DNA from: Shimia sp. Alg240-R146
GTDB lineage: Bacteria; Pseudomonadota; Alphaproteobacteria; Rhodobacterales; Rhodobacteraceae
NCBI RefSeq assembly: GCF_947331465.1
Contig: NZ_CAMZOK010000003.1
Span: forward strand, 496,001 to 560,000
Length of the DNA stretch: 64,000 nucleotides
Direction of reading: 5' to 3'
The notes beneath the pieces were generated by a model, which saw nothing but the letters and a program-made list of their open reading frames with translations, was not told the origin of the DNA and made no database searches. The translations under genes were made by a program, and so were the position numbers. This document shows positions 28,504-30,096 of this stretch, piece after piece (within the stretch, counting starts at the first letter, position 1; each line of letters begins with the position of its first letter).

Positions 28504-28998
28504 TCAGCGCTGCTTGCGGGCCTTTTTGATCAACATATCCCGCTTGGTCTTGCTAAGGTGGTCGAAATACATCTTGCCGTTGATGTGGTCGATCTGATGT
28601 TGAACCGATGTCGCCCACAGACCGACAAAATCCTTCTCAACGGTTGCGCCGTGTTCGTCCAAATAGCGCACGGTCACCGCGCGCGGACGTTTGATTTTGG
28701 CCGACACGCCCACAAGGTTTGGACTCGCTTCTTCGTGCTCGCGCGGCTGCACCGACGCGTGCAGGATTTCCGGATTGGCCATCCGGATCGCTTCGGTGCC
28801 GTCTTCGGTCGCATCCACCACAATCACGCGCAGCATCACGCCGATCTGGTTTGCCCCCATGCCAACACCGGGCATCGCATACATCGTCTCGATCAAATCG
28901 TCCCAGACCTGACGCACCTCTTCGGTAATCCCGCTCACTGGTGCAGCGGCGGTGCGCAGGCGTTTGTCAGGCCAAGGTATACAGGAACGAACAGTCAT
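28504..28998 (-). CDS. catalytically altered peptide deformylase paralogue
   Basis: A 164-residue protein with the peptide deformylase fold but substituted catalytic residues. Motif 1 reads GVGMGANQ (usual GxGxAAxQ). Motif 2 (usual EGCLS) reads EASPN, so the metal-ligand Cys is Ser92. Motif 3 reads HQIDH, so the catalytic Glu is Gln135, while both His ligands (134, 138) remain. It is full length, in frame and overlaps the next deformylase gene by 4 bases, so it is kept as a gene. It may bind rather than hydrolyse formyl-peptides or ribosomes. Loss of activity is inferred. Confidence 0.82.
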
Positions 28999-29486
28999 TT
29001 GGGGTCATATCCTTCTATCAGCGCGGTCCGGGTGGCGGTGTCGAGGTGATCCAGCGTGACAACGCCGTCCAAATGATCCATTTCGTGCTGGATACAACGG
29101 GCCGCAAAACCGTCAAAGTCGGCGCTGTGCGAGGCACCAGCTTCATCGCGCCATGTTACGGAAACCTCGCGTGGCCGCGTCACTGGCACCATCAGGTCAG
29201 GGATAGACAGGCAGCCCTCTTCCATCACGACAGTTTCGACGCTTCGGGCGGTGATCGCCGGATCGGCAAAGACCATCGGAGTCCGCGCGCCCTCTTTCCA
29301 CGTGACATCCATCACGAAAACGCGGCGCATATCGCCGATTTGCGGACCGGCAAGCCCACGGCCCGGAGCCGCATACATTGTTTCAAACATCTCATCGGTC
29401 AGCGTTCGAATATCCGCGTCGCCGACCGGGGCGCAAATTTGCGACAAGCGCGCATCAGGCCAGAGAACAATCGGCAGAACGCTCAT
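28995..29486 (-). CDS. def: peptide deformylase paralogue, active-site residues present
   Basis: A 163-residue peptide deformylase. Motif 1 is GRGLAGPQ (residues 42-49), with one Gly in place of the usual Ala. Motif 2 is EGCLS with Cys92, and motif 3 is HEMDH (134-138). The metal ligands and catalytic Glu135 are therefore present and activity is plausible. The sequence is more diverged than the neighbour at 29483. It overlaps both flanking paralogues by 4 bases, showing a tandem duplication read as one operon with fmt. Confidence 0.88.
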   Translation of the reverse strand: MSVLPIVLWPDARLSQICAPVGDADIRTLTDEMFETMYAAPGRGLAGPQIGDMRRVFVMDVTWKEGARTPMVFADPAITARSVETVVMEEGCLSIPDLMVPVTRPREVSVTWRDEAGASHSADFDGFAARCIQHEMDHLDGVVTLDHLDTATRTALIEGYDPK

Positions 29487-29995
29487 CCCCGCGCCAGCTC
29501 ACGCTTCATCTTCTGGCTCTTGCGGGTCATCATCTGACGCTTCATCGGGCCGAGATAATCAATGAACAGCTTGCCGTTCAGGTGGTCGATCTCGTGCTGC
29601 ACGCAGGTCGCCCACAACCCGTCAAAGTCTTTTTCCTGCGGGTTGCCGTCCATGTCGATCCAGCCCACGCGAACCGCTTCGGGGCGGGTGACGTCGGCAA
29701 ATTGCTCGGGGATCGACAGACAGCCTTCTTCATAGACGTTGGTTTCGTCAGAACTGCCCAAAACCTCTGGATTGAACATCACCATAGGCTCCGGTTCGCC
29801 CTCTTTGACGCAGTCCATCACGATCAACCGATCCAGCACGCCAACCTGCGGCGCCGCAAGGCCGATGCCGGGCGCATCATACATGGTTTCCAGCATGTCA
29901 TTGGCCAGAGTGCGCAATTCATCGCTTAGGTCGGCGACCGGCGCACAGACCTTTTTCAGACGGGGATCAGGGTGGATCAGGATCGAACGTTTCAT
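29483..29995 (-). CDS. def: peptide deformylase (canonical copy)
   Basis: A 170-residue enzyme that removes the N-formyl group from nascent proteins. All three motifs are canonical: GIGLAAPQ (43-50), EEGCLSIP with Cys91 and HEIDH with Glu134 on the MKRSILIHPD numbering (about one residue uncertainty). ATG 29995 is chosen because relatives start MKR; an ATG three codons earlier is possible, and neither has a strong Shine-Dalgarno site. It is the first gene of the def-def-def-like-fmt operon. Confidence 0.95.
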   Translation of the reverse strand: MKRSILIHPDPRLKKVCAPVADLSDELRTLANDMLETMYDAPGIGLAAPQVGVLDRLIVMDCVKEGEPEPMVMFNPEVLGSSDETNVYEEGCLSIPEQFADVTRPEAVRVGWIDMDGNPQEKDFDGLWATCVQHEIDHLNGKLFIDYLGPMKRQMMTRKSQKMKRELARG

Positions 29996-30096
29996 GGCTT
30001 TCATCTAGGACACGCAGCACGATTGCGCAACGGGGTTGCGCATGCCCGCCAATGAGGTAGCGTCATGCCGTTCAATCCAACAAAGGACCCACCTAA

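Follow-up and report, generated by a model that had tools for sequence, protein, structure and literature searches.

A conserved peptide deformylase paralogue with an altered active site in the deformylase gene cluster of Shimia and other Rhodobacteraceae

Peptide deformylase is an essential enzyme and a drug target. Among the deformylases already described, the type 1B enzymes (the E. coli type, represented by E. coli Def and by 1n5n of P. aeruginosa) resemble the paralogue discussed here, Def3, in having the whole fold with its C-terminal helix, both metal-binding histidines and the glutamine of motif I, and the E. coli and P. aeruginosa structures share 35-39% identity with it. They differ in carrying Cys, Leu and Glu in motifs II and III, where nearly all Def3 copies have Ser, Pro and Gln. 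Substitutions in the catalytic motifs are shared with the type 3 deformylases of Archaea and trypanosomatids, also present in S. aureus and S. pneumoniae (passages of PMC5591237 and PMC12690207), which are described in part of the former source as weakly active or inactive. Inactive or weak type 3 deformylases are thus already known, and what sets Def3 apart is its fixation within one family on an intact scaffold; compared with type 3 enzymes by description only, Def3 retains a C-terminal helix, and its copies make up a single group that lies beside def1. Accessory copies with changed properties are also represented by Def2 of Vibrio cholerae and the integron-borne deformylases (passages of PMC12690207; structure 9qft), but these are reported to be catalytically active and inhibitor-resistant, whereas Def3 is without the catalytic residues.

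The clusters of def genes described for Rhodobacterales in passages of PMC12690207 are the same clusters as those studied here. According to these passages, 104 of the 145 species with clustered deformylases belong to the Rhodobacterales, and 98.1% of the reference species of this order have clustered deformylase genes, with three together in 62.5% of these genomes; the rationale of the clusters is called elusive, and most accessory deformylases are said in the discussion to keep the critical residues. A Ser/Pro/Gln active site goes unmentioned in the abstract, sections 7 and 16 and the passages available from that source. Among the matches listed from the open-licence literature we found no report of the altered copy, and the literature matches listed likewise held no proteomic or transposon data on def3.

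We analysed a stretch of 64,000 nucleotides from Shimia sp. Alg240-R146 (contig NZ_CAMZOK010000003.1, positions 496,001 to 560,000; hereafter the window), in which the following features, all on the minus strand, make up the locus.

29483-30004, minus strand: def1, canonical peptide deformylase, 173 aa, with GIGLAAPQ, EGCLS, HEIDH and a basic C-terminal tail
28995-29486, minus strand: def2, second deformylase, 163 aa, with GRGLAGPQ, EGCLS, HEMDH and a short, non-basic C-terminal tail
28504-28998, minus strand: def3, deformylase paralogue, 164 aa, with Ser92, Pro93 and Gln135 replacing Cys, Leu and Glu
28714-28731, minus strand: altered motif II of def3, EASPNL, residues 90-95 (coordinates by codon position)
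28585-28599, minus strand: altered motif III of def3, HQIDH, residues 134-138 (coordinates by codon position)
28507-28551, minus strand: basic C-terminal helix of def3, residues 150-164 (AlphaFold helix 150-163), positioned where E. coli deformylase has its ribosome-binding helix
27575-28480, minus strand: fmt, methionyl-tRNA formyltransferase, 301 aa

A preliminary description of the window had reported three coupled def genes that overlap by 4 nt each and precede fmt, and the coordinates agree with it: def1 and def2 overlap at 29483-29486, def2 and def3 at 28995-28998, and 23 nt separate def3 from fmt. The translations also contain the motifs it had named, EGCLS and HExxH in Def1 and Def2 and EASPN with HQIDH in Def3, which is indeed full length with both His ligands in place. 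All three proteins score well above the Pfam cut-off for PF01327 (174.1, 159.4 and 129.7 bits for Def1, Def2 and Def3; cut-off 22.8), and they account for the only three matches to this family in the whole Shimia genome. Despite its altered catalytic residues, Def3 also exceeds the cut-off of the equivalog model TIGR00079 (pept_deformyl; 120.8 vs 103.95 bits), so that automatic naming probably labels it an active deformylase; it falls narrowly under the cut-off of NF001159 (123.2 vs 125). The def3 of Shimia sp. SK013 is 97% identical.

To describe the altered site we aligned Def1, Def2 and Def3 from the window and 134 further loci, a non-random sample chosen to span divergence (80 loci kept from a contig scan that found 477 relatives, the 24 lowest-scoring Def3-class matches of the family, and 30 of middling score). 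Ser92 recurred in 134 of 135 Def3 sequences, Pro93 in 135 of 135 and Gln135 in all 134 that were readable there (L137 ends at a contig edge), a recurrence which, together with the presence of Ser92 in both codon families, rules out chance or sequencing error as the source of these residues. At the same columns Def1 had Cys (135/135), Leu (135/135) and Glu (134/135), and Def2 had Cys (71/72), Leu (72/72) and Glu (71/72). Other residues conserved in Def3 were both metal histidines, His134 and His138, in 134/134 and Gln51 and Gly46 in 135/135. Eight columns were at least 90% conserved in both Def1 and Def3 and yet different, five of which (92, 93, 95, 131 and 135) fall within or next to motifs II and III. 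The preliminary description had named the Cys-to-Ser and Glu-to-Gln replacements; the Leu-to-Pro replacement next to the Ser, and a second Cys-to-Ser replacement at residue 131, immediately ahead of QHQIDH, are fixed as well. Motif I of the window Def3 reads GVGMGANQ, with Gly for one Ala of the AA pair in GxGxAAxQ.

Across the 134 loci, codon 92 was AGY in 111, TCN in 22 and CCG in 1, and Pro93 was written with all four Pro codons. The use of both AGY and TCN codons at residue 92 indicates that Ser itself is selected, the amino acids rather than the DNA being held. One locus, L258 (genome G240), carries the sole Def3 of the 135 with Pro for Ser92 (EAPPNL), and it keeps HQIDH.

In active deformylases the Glu of HExxH is the general base (Glu133 in E. 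coli), the backbone NH of E. coli Leu91 and Gln50 together steady the transition state, and the motif I glycines, Gln51 and both histidines hold the formyl-methionyl peptide. Docked ligands are described, in the passages available, as contacting the groups of the Leu91 NH, Gln50 and Glu133. Read against these roles, three elements of hydrolysis would be gone together in Def3, namely the Cys metal ligand (Ser92), the adjacent backbone NH (Pro93) and the Glu general base (Gln135), and the protein would retain the whole scaffold, the residues of the formyl-methionyl peptide groove and a basic docking helix. Passages of PMC3101196 are silent on mutants of the Glu or the Cys.

As modelled by AlphaFold, Def3 has a complete deformylase fold (mean pLDDT 93.1) with a C-terminal helix at residues 150-163, and in a re-ranking of Foldseek's own matches, rather than an independent search, it superposed on E. 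coli deformylase with an rmsd of 1.0 over 161-162 residues and a Z of about 27. The helix of Def2 is shorter (150-159). Counted from residue 148, the median net charge of the tail was +7 in the 135 aligned Def3 sequences (range 0 to 9), and +8 in Def1 and -1 in Def2 of the same loci. The C-terminal helix of deformylase binds ribosomal protein L22, according to part of PMC8712518. The basic helix of Def3 and the non-basic tail of Def2 thus suggest that the likely docking element survives in Def3 but not in Def2, and to judge from its sequence Def3 may dock at the ribosome, though a basic tail is no proof of docking. Binding of formyl-Met, which the kept groove residues would allow, is among the least certain of its presumed properties.

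In an unrooted tree from a quick search (117 rows: 38 Def1, 23 Def2, 38 Def3 and 18 other alphaproteobacterial copies), Def1, Def2 and Def3 each formed one side of a branch, and the branch of Def3 had a support of 99, its stem measuring 0.75 changes per column. Of two possibilities raised in the preliminary description, relaxed selection on the third copy was not seen in matched pairs, and pseudogenisation was not frequent. By pairwise Nei-Gojobori estimates, for which dS was near saturation, median dN/dS over 734 matched pairs was 0.181 for def3, equal to that of def1 (0.182), with fmt at 0.161; over the 215 pairs with all four genes it was 0.189 for def3, 0.197 for def1, 0.163 for fmt and 0.340 for the faster evolving def2; and in 12 close matched pairs it was 0.152 for def3, 0.170 for def1 and 0.184 for fmt. 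Pointing the other way, in unmatched pairs with a dS of 0.05-0.5 dN/dS was higher for def3 (0.247, 37 pairs) than for def1 (0.097, 18 pairs), and between the window and its nearest relative, SK013, it was about 0.15 for def3 and about 0.02 for def1. An intact def3 was the rule, the exceptions being the clearly broken L159 (genome G181), in which def2 and def3 are both in fragments beside an intact def1, and L134, with a degraded-looking def3 that reads HQANH. The state of L159 reflects either joint decay or errors in an assembly that is 80% complete.

The presumed loss of three hydrolysis elements at Ser92, Pro93 and Gln135, with groove and helix in place, favours a paralogue that does not cut and that would act as a competitor or a reader at the ribosomal tunnel exit. 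The reading we lean towards, at slightly less than an even chance of being right, is that Def3 is a conserved, non-hydrolysing, ribosome-docking pseudo-deformylase that modulates Def1. It draws on sequence, conservation, purifying selection, the single tree group, operon coupling and a predicted fold. From these we infer the loss of deformylase activity and the docking of Def3 at the ribosome, and, as its least certain parts, formyl-peptide binding and a regulatory effect. As a product of the coupled operon that also yields Def1, Def3 would visit the tunnel exit, where it would hold or shield formylated N-termini, or merely occupy the docking site, without cleavage, and would thereby set the timing of Def1 and then of methionine aminopeptidase. 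The preliminary description had suggested a non-catalytic regulator, of which the retained protein with a non-catalytic look is upheld by the fixed Ser, Pro and Gln and by purifying selection, its regulation being the part for which we claim least. More tentatively, it is possible that Def3 is a ribosome-docked, non-cleaving reader of formyl-methionine, retained in most of this one family, that times deformylation, in an operon that would split the ancestral job between Def1 as the full enzyme, Def2 as a catalytic copy without the basic anchor, and Def3 as an anchored copy without catalysis. If the pseudo-deformylase reading is true, Def3 would be a pseudoenzyme of a kind unusual in bacteria, with nascent chains as its site of action, and such a naturally occurring variant, its Glu and Cys replaced by Gln and Ser, might, if it binds formyl-Met at all, serve as a tool that binds without cutting.

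The organisation of the cluster in relatives bears on a first alternative, an unlikely one in our view, that Def3 is a subunit or scaffold which pairs with Def1 (or Fmt) and exerts its effect through contact between the proteins rather than by taking formylated chains into its own pocket. When each start codon was set as close as possible to the start of the profile, a 4-nt overlap was present between def2 and def3 in 63 of 71 loci, between def1 and def2 in 42 of 71, and, at loci for which no def2 was found, between def1 and def3 in 24 of 62. Downstream of the def genes fmt followed in 73 of 80 loci, at a median gap of 17 nt, and in the remaining seven the 4 kb that follow def3 yielded no fmt, the def genes still standing together. 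This translational coupling, the cohesion of the def genes in those seven loci, and the presence of Def1 at all 134 Def3 loci used would suit a pair of contacting proteins, but Def1 is probably essential, so that its constant presence carries little information, and conservation is centred on the ligand pocket (Gln51, Gly46, both histidines, Ser92-Pro93 and Gln135), for which a pure scaffold would have no use. As a rule, moreover, deformylases of the E. coli type are monomers. The seven loci comprise six from Salipiger and one from Thalassovita (L067, L075, L080, L082, L085, L088 and L091), each with def1, def2 and def3 together, and in L070-L073 an interval of 635-927 bp between def3 and fmt leaves room for an extra gene. 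The catalytic-looking extra copy, Def2, is less conserved than Def3: def2 was absent from 9 of 25 genomes of the genus and was not found in 30 of the 80 loci.

A second alternative holds that Def3 still catalyses a reaction, but with a different chemistry or use of its metal: the metal site might be of a 2-His-1-Ser kind, the substrate a different one, or the activity one that appears under oxidative stress. In its favour, both metal histidines and Gln51 are invariant, and Ser in Def3 stands for each of the two conserved Cys of Def1 (columns 92 and 131), which removes oxidisable thiols. However, Gln stands for the general-base Glu in 134/134 and Pro follows the metal ligand in 135/135, so that exchanging the metal would not by itself bring hydrolysis back; since three catalytic positions changed together, we regard altered chemistry as quite unlikely. 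Stress-adapted metal use has been suggested for type 3 deformylases generally, and type 3 deformylases of T. brucei with altered motifs are cited as active (both in passages of PMC12690207), so that the loss of the motifs is in itself no proof of inactivity.

Def3 could also serve as a decoy, binding natural inhibitors of deformylase of the actinonin kind and thereby shielding Def1, an idea to which we give only a small chance. The modelled fold and groove appear to be kept, and natural inhibitors have been proposed as a driver of accessory deformylases (in part of PMC12690207), but hydroxamates bind by way of the metal, which in Def3 no longer has its Cys ligand, and this would weigh against a decoy, as the constant linkage to def1, usually with fmt, would do by fitting housekeeping better than resistance. 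A decaying duplicate without function, to which the absence of def3 from part of the family, the clearly broken L159 and the degraded-looking L134 might point, is highly improbable, and was rejected as a general case on purifying selection equal to that on def1 in matched pairs, the near-invariant Ser-Pro-Gln of the family-wide sample and codon use at Ser92.

Within the genus def3 was present in 25 of 25 genomes (in one split between contigs). Across the family, in 394 genomes of 393 genera, the best match reached an E-value of 1e-50 or better in 335, was weaker in 47 and was missing in 12, a count made by hand that depends on a narrow score cut, Def1 matches extending up to 1.2e-49 and the weakest Def3 lying at 4.8e-51. 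All 24 of the lowest matches above the cut were Def3 by profile classification, and in an order-level sample of near-complete genomes, all of which belong to the Rhodobacteraceae, Def3-class matches were found in 41 of 41. The presence of Def3 in the 335 genomes above the score cut, with its three catalytic positions replaced in all copies read closely but for single exceptions, offers a partial answer to the clustering puzzle, in that one member of the cluster is probably a pseudoenzyme. Of the 47 genomes below the cut 28 were checked, and 26 were without Def3 and two had fragments, so any regulation by Def3 must be dispensable in those 26.

Outside the family Def3 was found in none of 187 genomes of the class (nine of them without any match), the best score, 170.9 bits, being at the level of canonical copies, and 27 of 27 loci from the best non-family genomes (L176-L202) had HExDH. 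Searched as a DNA pattern, QHQxDH gave matches in 45 of 181 class genomes (3 of the 181 belong to the family); of 20 such loci taken from those matches none was a deformylase, 17 being another or a spurious reading frame and three (L208, L214 and L216) giving no motif line. Matches occurred in 111 phage records, none above 60% identity, and in 979 plasmid records, of which a single one, from Pseudorhodobacter turbinis (1.58 Mb), exceeded 60%. The Def3-like copy of that plasmid (NZ_CP039965.1, 1086133-1086612) has 69% identity, and the plasmid holds three matching places.

Mapped on a def1 tree, which is poorly resolved, the presence of def3 required 18 changes; the label of Def1 only required 16, of which well-supported branches force three. 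Most of the genomes without Def3 (23 of 26) had Def1 with neither Def2 nor Def3, and one of these 23, G390, carries a different odd copy. At its locus L172, the ORF at 1467-1998 encodes an additional, separate deformylase that reads EGSLSM and HEIDQ (Ser for Cys, and Gln for the last His), which falls outside the Def3 class and, by its motifs, is possibly another altered copy.
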